DNA of 44,030 nucleotides from a virus: the IMG/VR virus record IMGVR_UViG_3300047548_001097, positions 1 through 44,030 of that record; one strand, given 5' to 3'. The notes under the pieces were generated by a model. The model searched no databases, was not told the DNA's origin, and saw nothing but the letters and a program-made list of their open reading frames with translations. This document shows positions 1,065 to 30,289 of the stretch, one piece after another. Each line of letters starts with the position of its first letter. Position 1 is the first letter of the stretch. A program made the position numbers and the translations under genes.

Positions 1065-4000
1065 ATGGCTAAAGACGATTGGGATATAGATGACGACCCT
1101 AATGGTAGTAAGGGTCTAGACGATTTTGATCGCGACATGAATTTTGATTTCGATCCAATGGACATGCGCGATGATCGTAAACCTGTCACGAAGTTTGCTT
1201 CGGCAGCAGCTCGTGAAATTGCCTCTATGCGGGGAGCAGGCCGCTTCGTTAAGAAGGTAGCTTTTGAAGCTATGCCTGACGGCTATAAGAACGCTTATGG
1301 TACCGCTAAAGGTGTTAAGGATAGCGTAAGCGATATATACGATACGTCGATACGTGCCGCTCAACCGACTATCCAAACTGTTAAACGATTAGGCCGTCTT
1401 ACAATACCTGCCGCCGAGAAAATATTACCAAAATCAGTGACAGAGCGTTTAAAAAGAGCCACGGCTAAAGAAGAACGATACGCTTCTCCAAATCGTGAAG
1501 AGTTAGAGATTGCTCAAACCTTAACCAGTATTTTTGACGCTCAACAGAAATCTGCCGAACTCGGTAAACGAGAAGACGATGCCAAAGAAGAGATGCAGCT
1601 GAATATTGCTAAAAAGCAATTCAGTACCAATCTCGAAGTGCAACGTCAGATCTCTGAAGGTATTGGTAGACTCGTCGGTTATCAAGACGGTGTTCTTGCT
1701 AAATACCACCGTAAGTCATTAGAACTACAACATCGTCATTACTTTGCTTCAAAAGAATTGTTAGCGTTCACTAAGAAAACTAACGAGGTGATGGTAGAGC
1801 AGTTAAAGGTCATTGTTAAGAACACCGCACTGCCTAATGAAATGAAAGTTCAGTTAAATGAACAGTTCATGCGGCAGAGTAAAGAACGGTTGATTGGCGC
1901 TGTTACTGATAGCTCTATGAATAAGTTACGTAACTTACCTTCTAAGATTGCAGAAGGTGCTAAGTCTCGTGCACTAGAAGCTGTTGAAATGATGAACATG
2001 ATGTCCGATATGGTTAACGGCATGATTGATTCATCGGGATTGGAGGATGGAGACTCTGGCGGATTCGGAATGGATCCGTACGAGATGATGGGTTCAGCTA
2101 CCGGCGATATGGTTAGGGATTCATTAGCCAAGAAAGCAGTAAATTCAAAATTCTTCCAAGACATCTTAAAAGATAAACGTGTTGCCGGTAAGTTACAGAA
2201 AGGCAACAACATGGCGAATATCTTCGTTGAATCTTTGCCTCGGTATTTGAATACCAAGATGAAGAAAGGTGATCATTGGTTATGGAAAGTTCTGGCTGAC
2301 TTTGCTGGTAGTGACGGAATGTTAGGTGAGGACAAAGTATCTGTCAACACTAACTTAGATAAAAATGCATTGGCTACTGCTAGCTGGGATGTGCTTTCAC
2401 GCAGAACATTGATCGAAGTTATTCCTGGTTATTTATCACGTATGCTGGTAGAACTGGAAACAATCAATAGAGATGTTCCTCCGGATCAAAAGGCTAGCAG
2501 AATTGTTTGGTCTAATGAGCGCGAATCGTTTATTACTGCTAAACAACAACAAATTGATATTCGTAGTAAATTTGAGAAACAGGCGGATACACGCCTGAAG
2601 TCCTATGCAGATGAATTGACAAAAACTATGGGAGCGGATAAAACGCTTTCTCCGGGTGCATTGGCTGCATTAAAACTTCGTATGACCAAAGAATCGGGTA
2701 ATATGGAATACTTTGACCCACGTGTCTTTGCTGATATGGGTGGGGAACATGGCGATGAAATTGCTGCCTTTATGGAAAGCAAATATAAGTTGAGTCAGTT
2801 TGCTGGACAAGAGGATGACAGTTTCCTTAAAATGGCTAAAAATAAAGCTAACTATTTTAAAGGGCAAGATCCTCAGTTCTTTGACGATTACTTAAAATCC
2901 ATGGTTTTATTTAATCAATTAGCTTCAGCTACACCCAACTTCCAAGATGTAGTGAAGGGGGAAATGGCTGGTGGTTTAGAAGGTCTACGAAATGCTGGAT
3001 TTGTAACAACGGATTCCGGTGGTGTACGTAGCGCCTTTAATGAAGACTACAAAGCTGAAATGATTAAGAAGATTTTAGCAGGTGAGAAACTTTCCTTCTT
3101 CGCTGACGGTGGAGATGTTAATAAAGGAAAGAACACTACGCCTAATGATGAAGATACTGTAGCGGCTTTGATGAAGAAGGGTGAATTTGTTATCCCTAAA
3201 GAAGTCGTTGATAAACGTGGTCGTAAGTTCTTTGAAGATATTATCTCTGGTCGAGATCAAGATGGTAATAGAAACAAAGCGTCTATGTTTAAGCGTAAAG
3301 GTATCGATCCACTCTATGAAGCCTTTGATTCGGCAAATGAATCATTACGCGTTAGTTTAGTCGGTGCTAATCAGGAAAGGCAATTAGAAATACTCATGCA
3401 GATTTCTGATGCCCTCCAACATGGCTACGTTGTGAATTCCGATGGAACCGTATCTCAAACAGGATATATGGGGCAATTCGGTAAAGACAGTAAGAAGGTT
3501 ATTAATAAAGGTTTCCGTGCACTATGGAAAGGTGTTCGTAAAGGAAACGATATTCGTAACGAAATGTTTGGTAAGTTCAAGGATAAGATGTTGAAGCCAG
3601 GTATGGAGATGGGCGGCAAAGCTGCTCGTTGGATCGGTGCGCATGTTGCCGACAGACTTGAACTCGGTAAAGAAATGGTAACTGATCTTTACGTAAAGGG
3701 AATGAAGAGTCCTCTATTGACCGAAGCCAAAATGCGTTTAGGACATTACTACTACGTTAAAGAAGATGGTACACGTGTCTTTATCAAATCTTGGGATGAG
3801 ATAAAGGGTGAAGCGGTTGACATCTATGACGTTTCTACCGGTAGTATTATTGTCTTTAAGGATCAGTTAAAAGATCTTTACTCAATGACACGACCTAAGT
3901 TAAACGGTTTCTTTAGAAAACTCAGAACCAAAGCAGGCAATCTTTTCTTGGCTCAGTTTGATGCGGCAAAAGCGGTATTAGACTTTAGTAAGAATATTGC

Positions 4001-7000
4001 TAGAAAGGTTTATCGAGCAGTAACTGCTCCCGTTGACGTCTACGTCAAAGGAAAAATGAATGAAGGTCCTCGACTGAGGAAAATCATTTTCCTGAATGGT
4101 GGCTACACGGATGCATTGGGTAACATTATTGATCATCACGATAAGATCAATGGTCCTGTGTATTCTGTTGGAGCTGATATGAAGATGGAAATGCGCTTAT
4201 CCATGGAAGATATTCAAGAAGGTCTTGTGGATAGTGCAGGTGACCCCATTGAAGGTACTGGCTTAGCTGGCAAGATTATCGCTAAAGGTTATCGTCTCGG
4301 AAAAGCTGCTGCGGATATAATGTACAAGTCCAGTAAGTTTACTATGGAACTTGCCAAGAATGTTGGCGGTACCATACTGGGTGTAACGGGACGAGCTGCA
4401 GGTAGTTTACCCGGATTCGGATTCAATAGCGGTATCGAAACTCGTTTAGATAAAATACTTAGACATATGCGTTTAGCGTTCCCTGTCTCAGGTGAAGATG
4501 ATGATCTGATAAAATCAGAACTTCCTATTGCTAAAGCCAGTGCTAGTATGAAAGCCAAAATGGAAACTATGCGTGAAGCTATCATTGATAAAAAGAATCG
4601 TGCTATTGCTAAATTGAAAGCAAAACGTGATGCAGCTAAAGCAGCGATGGATCTTGATGGTGACGGAGACACTGAAGGTAGCTGGCGAGATATTCTGCAA
4701 CGTCGGAAAGAAAAAGCTAAAGCGGGTGTAACGAATGTTGTTGCTAAAGCTAAAGCTGCTATTCCGGCATGGAAGCAGAAGATGGGAGAAAAGAAAGAGG
4801 ATCCAGAAGACGGTATCCTTGGGATGTTCGGTGAATTCTTCCAGTTCTATGTCTTTGATAAATTTACTGAGGCACTATTCAGCATTGTCCCCGGTGGTGT
4901 AGGACAAGCTGGTCGAGCACCTTTACTAGCTGCTAAAGTAGCGAAACTAAAACGTGCAGGCAAATGGTTGCGTGGTGCCATAGGTGGAGCTGCTAAAGGT
5001 CTAGGTAAAGTAGCCGCTGTAGTTGGTGGTGGTTTATTGAAGGGGGGTGCTAAAGCTGTCGGTGGCTTACTGAAAGGTGGAGCCAAGATGGTTGGTGGTG
5101 CCGCCAAAGGTTTAGGCAAGATGTTGGGCTTTGGCACTAAAGGAATAGGTAAGTTTGGTAAGGGTGCCGGTGTTGTTGGTGGCTTCATGTTGAAAAATCC
5201 AGCATTACTTTGGGCCAGTGCTGGTGTTGCCGCTGCACTATATGGTGGTCAAAAAATCAAAGAAGCCTTACGTCGCCGTAAAGAACTGAAGCCGATTGAG
5301 AAACTCCGTTTCTTGCAATATGGTATTCCTATTAATAACAAAGATGCTCGTGTAGAAATACACTACCTCGAGCAAAGAGTTATTGGTAGAATCCGTTTAT
5401 CTCCTGATGGTGGATTTAAACTAGGCTTTAAATGGCATGACATCTGGGAAGAATTTCATGACGACTTCGGCTGTGATGAAGAAGACGTAAAACAACAAGC
5501 TCGTTTCCGTAGCTGGTTCTACTATCGTTTCTTACCAGTATTCATTTGGCACATGCGTGCAGCTAAACGTATTGAGAAGTTGAATGTCTTTGATGTCGAT
5601 GACAAGATGACACCTAAGTTAAAACAAGACTACGTGAAGCAAGTTCAGTTTGGCACCAAAGAAGCTTTAACCTTAAAGCTGGATCCATACTCTGTTATGG
5701 AATCTCCTTGGAAAGAAATTGAACTACAAGACACTGCTGACTCTATTCAATCCCTGTCTAATGACATTATTAAGGCTTCGAAAGAAGGTAAAAACTTAGA
5801 CGGCGATGAAGCTACTAAAGTAGATAAGAAAGAGAAAGCTGAGGAAGACAAAAATAAAACCACGAAAGAAACTTCTGTGGGTGGCTTCTTCAAACACATT
5901 GTTAAGAAAACATTGGGCATCGATAAAGATTCTGATTATCAACGTGATAAGACACAGGCAGAGAAAGAAGACGAACGTCGTTTGGCCAATGCACGTAACT
6001 TAGGTCAGGCGCGGCGTCAGGGTGCCGTGTTAAAGACTAAAGAATACGATTATAAGCAAGCTCAAGATTCCAGCTTACAAGAAGAGTTTAATAAACTCAA
6101 TGGAGCTGGTGTTAAAGGGACACCGAAACTGTTGTTCCCTACTGAACCTGCTAAAGTCAATTCTCCCTTCGGTACACGCACAGATCCTTTTGGTTCTGGC
6201 GCTAAGCAAGCGCATAAAGGTATTGATATTAAAGTACCTGCCGGCACACCGGTTTATGCTGCTGCAGACGGTCGTGTAGTGCTTGCACAAATACTGAAAG
6301 GGTATGGTCTAGTTATCTATTTGCAACATGATGACGGTACATCTACACGCTATGCCCATTTGTCTGGTTTAATGCCAAATATTAAAGTGGGTGCCGTTGT
6401 TAGAGCCGGTCAACAGATTGCTTACTCTGGCGGTATCAAGGGATTACCTACATCAGGTCGTTCTGAAGGCCCGCACTTACATTTCGAATATCGAGATGCC
6501 AATGCAGGTGCTACTAGCAATGATGCTAAACCGTTGAACCCTATCGCTTACTTTAAAGGTTTGGATAAGGGTAACGTGGATATGGTGGTGGAAGCAGGAG
6601 AACCTGAAAAACCAAAAGATGATATGGGTAGTAAACCGATCATCCCGACACCACCTAAAGCGACTAGTGGGCAAATCGCGGCTATCAAAACTACACCTCC
6701 AGGAACACAACCAGTTCCGTCGGTGAAAGGTGAGATTGCTACTACTTCCGGTAATCCAGTTGTGGCAGGAACAACAAATGTTAATGTTGCTCCACCTAAC
6801 TTGGATCCATTAAATAAAACTATTGTTGATACTAGCAAAGGTTCATCCGCTCAACGTGATGAACAGATATCGTTGATGCGTGAGAATAACAATCTCATGG
6901 CAGCATTAATACAGCGATATGATCAACAAAATCAAGCCAGTGCTGCGGCATCGGCCGGTGGTGGTAGATCTCCTATGGGTGGTCCCACTAAAGTAAACTC

Positions 7001-7028
7001 CGTTATAGATCTTAGTGTAGGTGCATAA
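1065..7028 (+). CDS. Tail tape measure protein with C-terminal M23 peptidase domain
   Basis: This 1987-residue protein probably sets tail length and helps DNA entry through the cell wall. The start has a strong AGGAGG site six bases upstream. Residues 679-711 hold the FADGGDV...GEFVIP pattern common in phage tape measure proteins. A long Gly/Ala/Lys-rich hydrophobic stretch lies at about residues 1300-1410. An M23 (LytM-type) endopeptidase domain at about 1695-1830 has the zinc-site motifs HKGID (His1717, Asp1721) and HLH (His1804, His1806), plus His1765 in YAHLSG. It should therefore cut peptidoglycan cross-links during infection. The two genes downstream follow closely on the same strand, making a tail-structure block. 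The gene is divergent from the RNAP beta' gene across only 60 bp, which must hold both start regions. Confidence 0.85.
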   Translation: MAKDDWDIDDDPNGSKGLDDFDRDMNFDFDPMDMRDDRKPVTKFASAAAREIASMRGAGRFVKKVAFEAMPDGYKNAYGTAKGVKDSVSDIYDTSIRAAQPTIQTVKRLGRLTIPAAEKILPKSVTERLKRATAKEERYASPNREELEIAQTLTSIFDAQQKSAELGKREDDAKEEMQLNIAKKQFSTNLEVQRQISEGIGRLVGYQDGVLAKYHRKSLELQHRHYFASKELLAFTKKTNEVMVEQLKVIVKNTALPNEMKVQLNEQFMRQSKERLIGAVTDSSMNKLRNLPSKIAEGAKSRALEAVEMMNMMSDMVNGMIDSSGLEDGDSGGFGMDPYEMMGSATGDMVRDSLAKKAVNSKFFQDILKDKRVAGKLQKGNNMANIFVESLPRYLNTKMKKGDHWLWKVLADFAGSDGMLGEDKVSVNTNLDKNALATASWDVLSRRTLIEVIPGYLSRMLVELETINRDVPPDQKASRIVWSNERESFITAKQQQIDIRSKFEKQADTRLKSYADELTKTMGADKTLSPGALAALKLRMTKESGNMEYFDPRVFADMGGEHGDEIAAFMESKYKLSQFAGQEDDSFLKMAKNKANYFKGQDPQFFDDYLKSMVLFNQLASATPNFQDVVKGEMAGGLEGLRNAGFVTTDSGGVRSAFNEDYKAEMIKKILAGEKLSFFADGGDVNKGKNTTPNDEDTVAALMKKGEFVIPKEVVDKRGRKFFEDIISGRDQDGNRNKASMFKRKGIDPLYEAFDSANESLRVSLVGANQERQLEILMQISDALQHGYVVNSDGTVSQTGYMGQFGKDSKKVINKGFRALWKGVRKGNDIRNEMFGKFKDKMLKPGMEMGGKAARWIGAHVADRLELGKEMVTDLYVKGMKSPLLTEAKMRLGHYYYVKEDGTRVFIKSWDEIKGEAVDIYDVSTGSIIVFKDQLKDLYSMTRPKLNGFFRKLRTKAGNLFLAQFDAAKAVLDFSKNIARKVYRAVTAPVDVYVKGKMNEGPRLRKIIFLNGGYTDALGNIIDHHDKINGPVYSVGADMKMEMRLSMEDIQEGLVDSAGDPIEGTGLAGKIIAKGYRLGKAAADIMYKSSKFTMELAKNVGGTILGVTGRAAGSLPGFGFNSGIETRLDKILRHMRLAFPVSGEDDDLIKSELPIAKASASMKAKMETMREAIIDKKNRAIAKLKAKRDAAKAAMDLDGDGDTEGSWRDILQRRKEKAKAGVTNVVAKAKAAIPAWKQKMGEKKEDPEDGILGMFGEFFQFYVFDKFTEALFSIVPGGVGQAGRAPLLAAKVAKLKRAGKWLRGAIGGAAKGLGKVAAVVGGGLLKGGAKAVGGLLKGGAKMVGGAAKGLGKMLGFGTKGIGKFGKGAGVVGGFMLKNPALLWASAGVAAALYGGQKIKEALRRRKELKPIEKLRFLQYGIPINNKDARVEIHYLEQRVIGRIRLSPDGGFKLGFKWHDIWEEFHDDFGCDEEDVKQQARFRSWFYYRFLPVFIWHMRAAKRIEKLNVFDVDDKMTPKLKQDYVKQVQFGTKEALTLKLDPYSVMESPWKEIELQDTADSIQSLSNDIIKASKEGKNLDGDEATKVDKKEKAEEDKNKTTKETSVGGFFKHIVKKTLGIDKDSDYQRDKTQAEKEDERRLANARNLGQARRQGAVLKTKEYDYKQAQDSSLQEEFNKLNGAGVKGTPKLLFPTEPAKVNSPFGTRTDPFGSGAKQAHKGIDIKVPAGTPVYAAADGRVVLAQILKGYGLVIYLQHDDGTSTRYAHLSGLMPNIKVGAVVRAGQQIAYSGGIKGLPTSGRSEGPHLHFEYRDANAGATSNDAKPLNPIAYFKGLDKGNVDMVVEAGEPEKPKDDMGSKPIIPTPPKATSGQIAAIKTTPPGTQPVPSVKGEIATTSGNPVVAGTTNVNVAPPNLDPLNKTIVDTSKGSSAQRDEQISLMRENNNLMAALIQRYDQQNQASAAASAGGGRSPMGGPTKVNSVIDLSVGA

Positions 7029-14947: not shown

Positions 14948-15244
14948 CTATTTCACGCGCATAGTGCCACAGCACTTTTTAGTTTTCTTTCCACTACCGC
15001 ACCGGCAAGGCTGATTCCTTTTACCGTTGGTAGTACCGTGAACTTTGCGATTATACGTTACTGGATCGTAATCCTCTAAACGGATATTAGGAAGGTCAAG
15101 AGGTTTTGTTTTACCCCTATTCTTAGTTTCTTCCGTTTCTGTAGTAATCACATTTAGACCACCTTCCAGTAAGGCCTTTGTAACAGCTGCTCTGGCAAAG
15201 GATGACGCCCCACCGACCAATATTACTTTCTTTTCACTTTCCAT
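14948..15244 (-). CDS. SEC-C motif protein
   Basis: A 98-residue protein whose C terminus, QPCRCGSGKKTKKCCG, is a complete SEC-C zinc-binding motif (Cys-x-Cys-x8-Cys-Cys), as found at the end of SecA, where it binds zinc and SecB. The N terminus (VILVGGASSFARAAV) looks like the start of a small nucleotide-binding fold but is too short to be a full domain. AGGAG lies seven bases before the start, and the gene overlaps the XRE regulator gene by 11 bases. Role unknown; a metal-dependent protein contact is likely. Confidence 0.7.
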   Translation of the reverse strand: MESEKKVILVGGASSFARAAVTKALLEGGLNVITTETEETKNRGKTKPLDLPNIRLEDYDPVTYNRKVHGTTNGKRNQPCRCGSGKKTKKCCGTMRVK

Positions 15245-16902: not shown

Positions 16903-17343
16903 TTACAAACGTTCTTTACACTTCTTTAATACCCGATCAGAAACCTTTCCTATTGCTCGGAAGTCTTGTTTCGTCACCGTACTTTCCCAGCGCATGTCAG
17001 CGTCTAAAGAAACCAGGACAAATGGCTCCAAAGAAGCAACAACAGCTCCACCATATTCCTGTCTGCCTGAACGTAGATGTGAACCATCTTTAGTGACCAC
17101 TGCGTGCCCTACTTCCAAATCATCGGTCGGATGATCGAAATGTGAAATTTTGGCTTCAGTATCTACATCCCCCTGGATCCCTTCGATAGATTGGATAAAA
17201 CGGTTTGCACTAGCCAGCACTGCTTTGGCGTCTTCCAGCGTGCGTACCGTAACAACATGTTTACCATCTTCCGAAACAATCTCCATTATCGGCTGCGGGT
17301 ATTCGAAAATCTTGATATCTTTACCAACATAACTTGGTTCCAT
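16903..17343 (-). CDS. Unknown soluble protein
   Basis: A 146-residue protein. The start has AAGGAAA directly upstream. It is acidic in the middle and basic at the C terminus. No domain is recognised. It is the first protein gene downstream of the structured RNA region and may be cotranscribed with it, since no clear terminator separates them. Confidence 0.6.
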   Translation of the reverse strand: MEPSYVGKDIKIFEYPQPIMEIVSEDGKHVVTVRTLEDAKAVLASANRFIQSIEGIQGDVDTEAKISHFDHPTDDLEVGHAVVTKDGSHLRSGRQEYGGAVVASLEPFVLVSLDADMRWESTVTKQDFRAIGKVSDRVLKKCKERL

Positions 17344-17372
17344 TTTCCTTTCCTCTTAGTTAGACAAAATAA

Positions 17373-17990
17373 AATACACTCCCCAGACAGCACTCAGATG
17401 TCCCCATCCGAATGCCGTCCAGGCAATGCACGACCATCACTTATAGTCAGTTGTACCTTAACACCCGTATGGGTACTAAGGGGGGTACTACCAACGCCCC
17501 GTGGATTTATGTTAATTACAGCTCAACCTTAGCTGTAGTCTAGTACCGACACCAGACTGTGAGTCCTACTACCGTCGCTTCAACAACTGATCACTGGGCG
17601 ATACCATATGACCAATCTCCACAATAGCTCAGCCCACCGAAGTGAAGACTGAGTTCCAGTAATAACCATCCGAACGCAATAGTGCTTCGGGAAATAATCG
17701 GAGGCGGACTATTTCCTATACTTGACAGTTTAAGATCCGGAATCGCTGTATAAAGAGGGTCGCTCAATATACAGAAATCTACCCGGCTTCTCCAAGCGCC
17801 TGCTCGCAAAACATTAAGTATTTGCGATGTACTGCTCCACAGATGGGTATTGTTAATACGTACCAGCGCCAACGATCCTCGTGTTAGGAAACCGGCCCTG
17901 CTTATACGCAAATTAATATACAGAGGTCTGTCTCTACGGCCGTAGATTGACATGTACTTTTTCCAACCCTATCGTCTTCTGTCAGACGGG
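17373..17990 (-). ncRNA. Candidate large structured RNA (about 620 nt)
   Basis: No convincing gene covers this stretch, which is full of inverted repeats. Main stems: 17973-17988; a CTACGGCCGTAG palindrome at 17934-17945; 17846-17864; 17804-17827 (seven perfect pairs); 17690-17716 (ten pairs only when read on minus, where A-C becomes G-U); 17628-17653, capped on minus by a classic C-UUCG-G tetraloop; 17537-17558; 17518-17536; 17453-17488 (two stacked stems); 17413-17425. The ends may pair too (GACAG near 17982, CTGTC near 17387). The UUCG cap and the G-U pair favour the minus strand. It follows tRNA-Leu and a small gene. Size, phage context and tRNA neighbour fit the ROOL and GOLLD giant RNAs. 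Membership is untested. Confidence 0.55.
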
Positions 17991-17997
17991 ACTTCTT

Positions 17998-18258
17998 TTA
18001 ACCGTTTACAGATTGTAGATAAAAAGCAGTTGTTACTTCTTCTGCGGTATAACTACTCTCCAAAGATGATCCTGGGAGCATAATCGGCGATTTTGAATCT
18101 TCGCCAATCTTGTCCCGGAAAGCTTTTTCGCGCATGTCATACTGGTAGTCAGTAATGACTGGTTCGGCAAGTATGTAATAAAGATAACGATGAGCCATTA
18201 ACTCCCGTTCTTCATCTCGCAGCGGACCATCTTTACAACGAACGACATCTTCTGACAT
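17998..18258 (-). CDS. Orphan NAD-dependent DNA ligase domain Ia-like protein
   Basis: The start is at 18258 (MSEDVVRC, 86 residues), with AGAGG five bases upstream. A longer frame back to 18345 runs through the tRNA gene and is not real. Residues 22-45 (HRYLYYILAEPVITDYQYDMREKAF) match domain Ia of LigA, where Tyr, His, Asp and Tyr-Asp bind the NMN half of NAD. The following SPIMLPGSSLE resembles the linker to the adenylation domain. No adenylation, OB or BRCT domain follows. It might bind NAD or NMN, or assist a ligase encoded elsewhere. It lies between tRNA-Leu and the structured RNA. Confidence 0.6.
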   Translation of the reverse strand: MSEDVVRCKDGPLRDEERELMAHRYLYYILAEPVITDYQYDMREKAFRDKIGEDSKSPIMLPGSSLESSYTAEEVTTAFYLQSVNG

Positions 18259-18275: not shown

Positions 18276-18359
18276 TGGTACCGGAAACCGGACTCGAACC
18301 GGTACGCCTTACGGCAGGAAATTTTAAGTCTCCGATGTCTACCATTCCATCACTCCGGC
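18276..18359 (-). tRNA. tRNA-Leu(UAA)
   Basis: Read on the minus strand, the acceptor GCCGGAG pairs with TTCCGGT, followed by discriminator A and an encoded CCA (18276-18278). The anticodon stem GGAGA/TTTCC carries loop CTTAAAA with anticodon UAA. The variable arm is long (TGCC-GTAA-GGCG), as in leucine tRNAs. The T arm is ACCGG-TTCGAGT-CCGGT. It decodes UUA, which is frequent in this AT-leaning genome. It is the only tRNA I find here. Confidence 0.93.
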
Positions 18360-18374
18360 GAATTAAAAGTAAAA

Positions 18375-18394
18375 GGGGGAGTATTACCTCCCCC
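18375..18394 (-). terminator. Strong rho-independent terminator before tRNA-Leu
   Basis: On the minus strand a GGGGGAG / CTCCCCC perfect seven-base-pair GC stem with a six-base loop is followed by TTTTACTTTT. It ends a transcript coming from about 18600 and isolates it from the tRNA. Confidence 0.85.
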
Positions 18395-18600
18395 CGTCAC
18401 ACCCTTGATCCCATAAGTACATGAGTGATGGGAGGGATTTTACCGACCCATGTACTATATGTCGGCTGCGCTTCGCTACTGTTAATTCAGCTGCCTCTCC
18501 ACCGATAGTGAAGTACTCACGCAATTAGACGGGAAATGCATTTCTCCCAACCGAGGTATATGTGAATAAACTAACCATTATTGTTGACTCCCAACCCAAA
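18395..18600 (-). ncRNA. Candidate small structured RNA (about 200-220 nt)
   Basis: This stretch lies between the stop of the gene at 18661 and the strong terminator at 18375, and I see no gene in it on either strand. It contains a 12-base palindrome GAAATGCATTTC (18533-18544), an eight-base inverted repeat AGTACATG/CATGTACT (18416-18456), and a short hairpin with a GGAGU loop on the minus strand (18583-18595). It could be a long structured 3' UTR of the gene at 18661 or a separate small RNA. I looked for a second tRNA and found no T arm. The 5' end is not defined. Confidence 0.4.
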
Positions 18601-18660
18601 CGGCCAGGCAATACCAATTAATTTTCTTCACATATTCTTACAAACTGTCATCTTTTTTTA

Positions 18661-19481: not shown

Positions 19482-19509
19482 ATTATGTATCTTTGAAAAG
19501 TATTTGAAA
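19482..19509 (-). promoter_or_regulatory. Promoter, TTTCAA-N16-CATAAT
   Basis: On the minus strand TTTCAA is followed after 16 bases by CATAAT. It lies about 50 bases upstream of the gene starting at 19434 and directly after the terminator of the helicase gene. The first 11 bases of its spacer region closely match the promoter at 11182. Confidence 0.65.
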
Positions 19510-30261: not shown

Positions 30262-30289
30262 AGAATATACGTTTTCATTTCAGTTGAAC
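30262..30289 (-). promoter_or_regulatory. Promoter, GTTCAA-N16-TATTCT
   Basis: On minus GTTCAA is followed after 16 bases by TATTCT, with CGTA before the -10. The stretch AACGTATATTCT is identical in the promoter at 34540. It drives the HD hydrolase unit. Confidence 0.68.

Follow-up and report, generated by a model that had tools for sequence, protein, structure and literature searches.

In this study, we propose that the minus strand of a distantly phiKZ-like jumbo phage encodes a stand-alone phage long noncoding RNA (lncRNA) of about 600 nt and of no known family, a reading to which we give a probability of roughly 0.58. The DNA came from a 44-kb IMG/VR virus record (IMGVR_UViG_3300047548_001097), and the whole stretch of 44,030 nt that was analysed is referred to below as the window. 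The points in favor of a stand-alone RNA are the length and elevated GC content of a gap between genes, the absence of coding signal, a hairpin excess confined to the minus strand, a strand asymmetry in span-limited folding beyond that of all 37 background windows, a terminator-grade 3′ hairpin and a nearby tRNA-Leu gene, and we also counted orf-less tRNA-side stretches in two other phages (G001 and Noxifer) and the precedents of ICP1 and phage K. Counted against it were the failure to find a homologue, an energy signal that lies within the range of ordinary windows once the 3′ hairpin is removed, and the lack of a good promoter-like motif copy before the RNA. We regard it as a well-supported candidate rather than a demonstrated RNA.

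The contig proteins match phiKZ-type families, including an SNF2-like helicase, a UvsX-like recombinase, an SbcC-like subunit, RNase H and virion structural proteins. The identity of the helicase to those of Noxifer, LucasX and other jumbo phages is at most 42–45%, and that of RNase H is about 27%. Judged from these proteins, the contig is an orphan jumbo-phage lineage, distantly phiKZ-like, and the remoteness of its relatives limits every comparative test. Elsewhere in the window, 1065–7028 (+) encodes a tail-fibre-like protein of 1987 aa whose C terminus carries a metallo-endopeptidase/endolysin-type domain, and 14948–15244 (-) encodes a small protein with a SEC-C-like zinc motif at its end (CRCGSGKKTKKCCG), as judged by eye.

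Gene calling by codon usage left a gap of 654 nt, the longest in a tightly packed contig, where the remaining gaps measure at most 126 nt, except for a 315-nt gap at the tRNA and the uncalled first 1,064 bases. Its GC content is 0.46, compared with 0.41 for the contig and its genes and 0.35 for short gaps. A preliminary description of this DNA had stated that the interval holds no credible gene, and the coding analysis agreed with it. The only sizeable minus-strand ORF of the gap (17591–17953, 120 aa) has an antisense-frame-like codon score of -0.07, against 0.2–0.52 for the genes of the phage, and matched no family in PHROG or Pfam; the six stop-masked frames of the gap gave no PHROG match either. 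Therefore, the gap is noncoding and without signs of an obvious pseudogene, and an origin from a decayed gene was rejected on the result for the stop-masked frames. No tRNA remnants were recognized in the gap by ARAGORN at thresholds 90 and 80 or in Rfam at E<=10, and the tRNA-like matches at thresholds 70 and 60 occurred on both strands and were discarded as noise.

The many stems reported in the preliminary description were recovered on the minus strand. When uninterrupted hairpin stems, 7 bp or longer and with three or more G-C pairs, were counted in 618-nt stretches, 8 were present on the minus strand of the gap, compared with 2.8 ± 1.9 in shuffles (at least 8 in 6 of 300) and with a mean of 1.9 and a maximum of 7 in the other stretches of the window; the plus strand of the gap has only two such stems. 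With the span restricted to at most 60, the folding z was -5.99 on the minus strand and -1.64 on the plus strand, and the strand asymmetry z of 4.75 lay above all 37 background windows (maximum 3.2). Without the 3′ hairpin, the span-limited minus z was -3.75 (background -2.1 ± 1.4), and in unrestricted folding the minus z of -4.5 became -1.75 (background -2.5 ± 1.8). Much of the energy signal stems from this single hairpin, and the structure consists of one extraordinary 26-bp hairpin and, on one strand only, a moderate surplus of ordinary stable hairpins. A genuine ROOL RNA, from Ligilactobacillus salivarius pMP118, scored a z of about 0 in the same test, so folding energy can be used neither to prove a large functional RNA nor to rule one out. 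The earlier proposal of a large structured minus-strand RNA beside a tRNA gene stands as the best reading, although its energy signal is modest when the 3′ hairpin is left out.

The positions of the structural elements and their neighbors are given in Table 1. Several were already named in the preliminary description and reappeared here: a stem within 17453–17488, found as 11 bp; the cUUCGg hairpin, canonical on the minus strand only; and the stem at 17690–17716, which runs through a G-U pair on the minus strand. Its suggestion that GACAG and CTGTC near the two ends pair and close the molecule is not credible, since CTGTC (about 17386–17390) lies inside a perfect 19-bp hairpin (17382–17423) that would have to open, and a five-base match arises easily by chance. 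Two 14-nt perfect palindromes exist in the window, the one at 17933–17946 among them, and the longest palindrome has 16 nt. A pairing of 17697–17717 with the tRNA-Leu anticodon arm (76% over 21 nt) was also considered and rejected, as by our estimate chance alone would yield about one match of this kind.

Table 1. Features in and around the orf-less gap, with positions in the window.
Feature	Position	Strand	Evidence
146-aa gene just downstream of RNA, own ribosome-binding site	16903–17343	-	phrog_17597, E 3e-15, function unknown
Orf-less gap of elevated GC with the putative structured RNA	17344–17997	-	longest gap, no coding signal, minus-specific structure
26-bp hairpin (7 + 19 bp), then UUUAUUUUG U-rich tail	17374–17431	-	-41.4 kcal/mol, z -10.4
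11-bp hairpin CCUUAGUACCC-AUAC-GGGUGUUAAGG	17456–17481	-	stem count; z -3.6
7-bp hairpin UACAGCU/AGCUGUA	17517–17537	-	stem count, folding
9-bp hairpin AGUCUGGUG/UACUAGACU	17537–17558	-	stem count, folding
10-bp arm GAUUGGUCAU/AGUGAUCAGU	17585–17618	-	span-limited fold
cUUCGg-tetraloop hairpin	17628–17653	-	stem count, folding
10-bp hairpin GGAAAUAGUC/GAUUAUUUCC, one G-U pair	17690–17716	-	z -4.1
Hairpin CUGUAUA.../UAUACAG	17746–17774	-	z -4.9
Hairpin UCGCAAA/UUUGCGA	17804–17827	-	stem count, folding
Long interrupted arm, about 19 bp	17856–17912	-	-21.6 kcal/mol, z -2.5
Hairpin with 14-nt perfect palindrome UCUACGGCCGUAGA (TCTACGGCCGTAGA) at 17933–17946, self-complementary GGCC loop	17929–17952	-	
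86-aa gene between tRNA and RNA	17998–18258	-	codon score 0.32; phrog_6466, E 1e-4
tRNA-Leu (UAA)	18276–18359	-	ARAGORN; Rfam 44.6 bits
Second orf-less stretch, minus-structured, upstream of tRNA	18360–18660	-	minus z -3.4, asymmetry z 2.9

It is unlikely that the gap is a non-functional remnant of decayed genes or tRNA-cluster debris, holding mostly chance stems and one ordinary terminator. Against this reading stand a GC content higher than that of both genes and gaps, a hairpin excess restricted to one strand, the lack of a PHROG match in the stop-masked frames and the lack of tRNA fragments in ARAGORN at its stricter settings and in Rfam at E<=10. Spacers of 650 nt are normally purged from phage genomes, and no second internal spacer as long as this occurs in the contig, but the energy signal is modest without the terminator hairpin, phage tRNA regions are plastic and no conservation is known, all of which would suit a remnant.

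The 26-bp hairpin was terminator-like in a terminator scan and is likely the 3′ end of the RNA, either as a predicted terminator or as a processing stop. It is located about 15 nt ahead of the ribosome-binding site of the 146-aa gene (AGAGGAAAGG), which lies outside the hairpin. The position of that gene, an immediate neighbor on the same strand with the hairpin between the RNA and its start codon, is also what would favor a 5′ leader or attenuator, long and structured, with its hairpin controlling the translation of the 146-aa gene, its read-through or its stability (RNase III). We consider this unlikely, slightly more so than a remnant. Counted against it, 600 nt with a dozen arms would be unusual for a leader, the ribosome-binding site is not enclosed by the hairpin, and no Rfam cis-regulatory family was matched.

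On the minus strand, the order is a promoter-like motif at 19494, a 257-aa gene, the structured stretch 18360–18660, tRNA-Leu (UAA), the 86-aa gene, the RNA gap, the 26-bp hairpin with its U-rich tail and the 146-aa gene, with 279 nt between tRNA-Leu and the gap. The 86-aa gene has a weak N-terminal DNA-ligase Ia-like match below the cut-off (PF22745, 20.9 bits). The stretch upstream of the tRNA ends in a terminator-like hairpin (18374–18395, GGGGGAG...CUCCCCC, UUUUACUUUU) only about 15 nt before tRNA-Leu. The motif AAA-N-N-TAYATTNTC (AAANNTAYATTNTC), found by eye from few instances, recurs in gaps at 30274, 15661, 34552, 24273, 19494 and 22866 (-) with scores of 12.7–16.3, and it looks like an AT-rich phage promoter. 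No good copy precedes the RNA, the best being a weak one at 17961 (7.2 versus 12.7–16.3), so the RNA may arise by processing of a transcript shared with the tRNA, or its start may lie in the first 50 nt of the gap.

Considering these observations, we have drawn up a plausible model for the stand-alone RNA. Its transcription would run in the direction of the flanking genes, within the tRNA-Leu/86-aa unit or just downstream of it, and the RNA would fold into a chain of at least 10 local hairpins and arms. The 26-bp hairpin and U-rich tail would set its 3′ end ahead of the 146-aa gene with its separate ribosome-binding site, and the putative product would act as RNA. If tRNA-adjacent phage lncRNAs are a guide, it would most likely serve as an infection-time RNA of high abundance, connected with translation or with RNA-only assembly.

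The preliminary description had thought of the ROOL/GOLLD type of giant RNA or, equally, of a new class; membership of ROOL or GOLLD found no support. A cmscan with Rfam 15 at E<=10 over the interval, in which OLE, HEARO, group I/II introns and tmRNA were included, gave no family match, and its sole matches were chance matches to microRNA hairpins far below their cut-offs; ARAGORN found no tmRNA. The ROOL (RF03087) and GOLLD (RF02032) covariance models, also run alone, did not match at E<=10. As a control, the true ROOL of pMP118 was recovered at 130 bits, and the control genomes for GOLLD gave sub-cut-off matches only. The candidate is similar in size and setting to ROOL RNAs, which are phage-borne, about 500–600 nt long and often near tRNAs, since it lies on a phiKZ-like contig close to tRNA-Leu, and to GOLLD RNAs, which are large, belong to phages or prophages and are near or contain tRNAs, but differs from both in having no covariance-model match. 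In addition, the control ROOL has a GC content of 0.40 and folds no better than shuffles, whereas the candidate is a chain of hairpins with high GC. It is very improbable that the RNA is a diverged ROOL or GOLLD, or belongs in diverged form to another known family of large RNAs, because these models did not match while the ROOL control worked and the architecture is unlike that of the control, even though size, phage setting and the tRNA neighbor fit the location of ROOL and GOLLD near tRNA islands (PMC12286853); membership by sequence is largely refuted.

Parallels by setting also come from other phages. Phage K, a Staphylococcus kayvirus, has two lncRNAs beside tRNA genes, lnc001 and lnc002 (PMC9241854), which are orf-less, intergenic, about 635 and 1150 nt long and of unknown function, and which their authors placed in no curated family, just as the candidate has none. 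In contrast to the candidate, their transcription was seen by RNA-seq, and phage K is an unrelated phage; the likeness drawn here is one of setting. The most abundant transcript of ICP1 is an orf-less RNA of about 800 nt (PMC7567579), which likewise occupies a long orf-less interval of a virulent phage and has no known function; it differs in being the top phage transcript by RNA-seq and in belonging to a phage without tRNAs (PMC7567579). Being orf-less, several hundred nt long and beside a tRNA gene, the candidate would join the phage tRNA-adjacent lncRNAs, a descriptive kind and not a family, and by sequence it would belong to no family.

Homologues of the RNA were sought without success by blastn in 50,697 phage records, with two covariance models built from the single sequence (R1 and R2) in 22 records of jumbo phages and related viruses, and by exact-pattern scans in IMG/VR and GTDB. 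Synteny through the helicase (14 loci, 32–45% identity) revealed no conserved gene order and no counterpart of the RNA, and the neighboring proteins provided no useful anchors for finding relatives. In G001, the phiKZ-like jumbo-phage contig IMGVR_UViG_3300024312_000003, an 864-nt orf-less stretch adjoins tRNA-Ser (L086:13384–14247), and in Noxifer one of about 405 nt lies near tRNAs (NC_041994.1:197156–197560). With filters off, R1 and R2 gave only simple hairpin look-alikes in the tRNA-side gap of G001, and blastn found no relatives of its 864-nt stretch in the phage collection; for the Noxifer region, the best matches among those listed fall at its tRNAs, outside the orf-less part. Both stretches have weak folding signals and a strand-specificity unlike that of the RNA gap. 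This suggests, without proving, that the tRNA neighborhood of these phages is a site where unrelated noncoding RNAs reside.

G001 also carries a phage-borne permuted tmRNA at L086:17334–17703 (-), equal to G001:C1:117334–117703, with 76 bits for RF04321 (cut-off 47), 91 bits for RF01850 and the ARAGORN tag AANDSTFAQRLAA. By eye, it adjoins an HNH-endonuclease-like ORF, and it was absent from the other 21 records searched.

Tentatively, the candidate could also be the first representative of a new class of large RNAs in phiKZ-like jumbo phages, built as chains of hairpins. The tRNA-side "RNA slot" in which it lies would then be fast-evolving and occupied by unrelated orf-less RNAs in other relatives, and the palindromic GGCC loop of the hairpin at 17929–17952 might allow the RNA to multimerise. 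If the stand-alone RNA is real, a large RNA from phiKZ-like jumbo phages would join the small set of phage lncRNAs of unknown purpose, and large tRNA-side RNAs would seem to have arisen repeatedly rather than by descent from ROOL or GOLLD.
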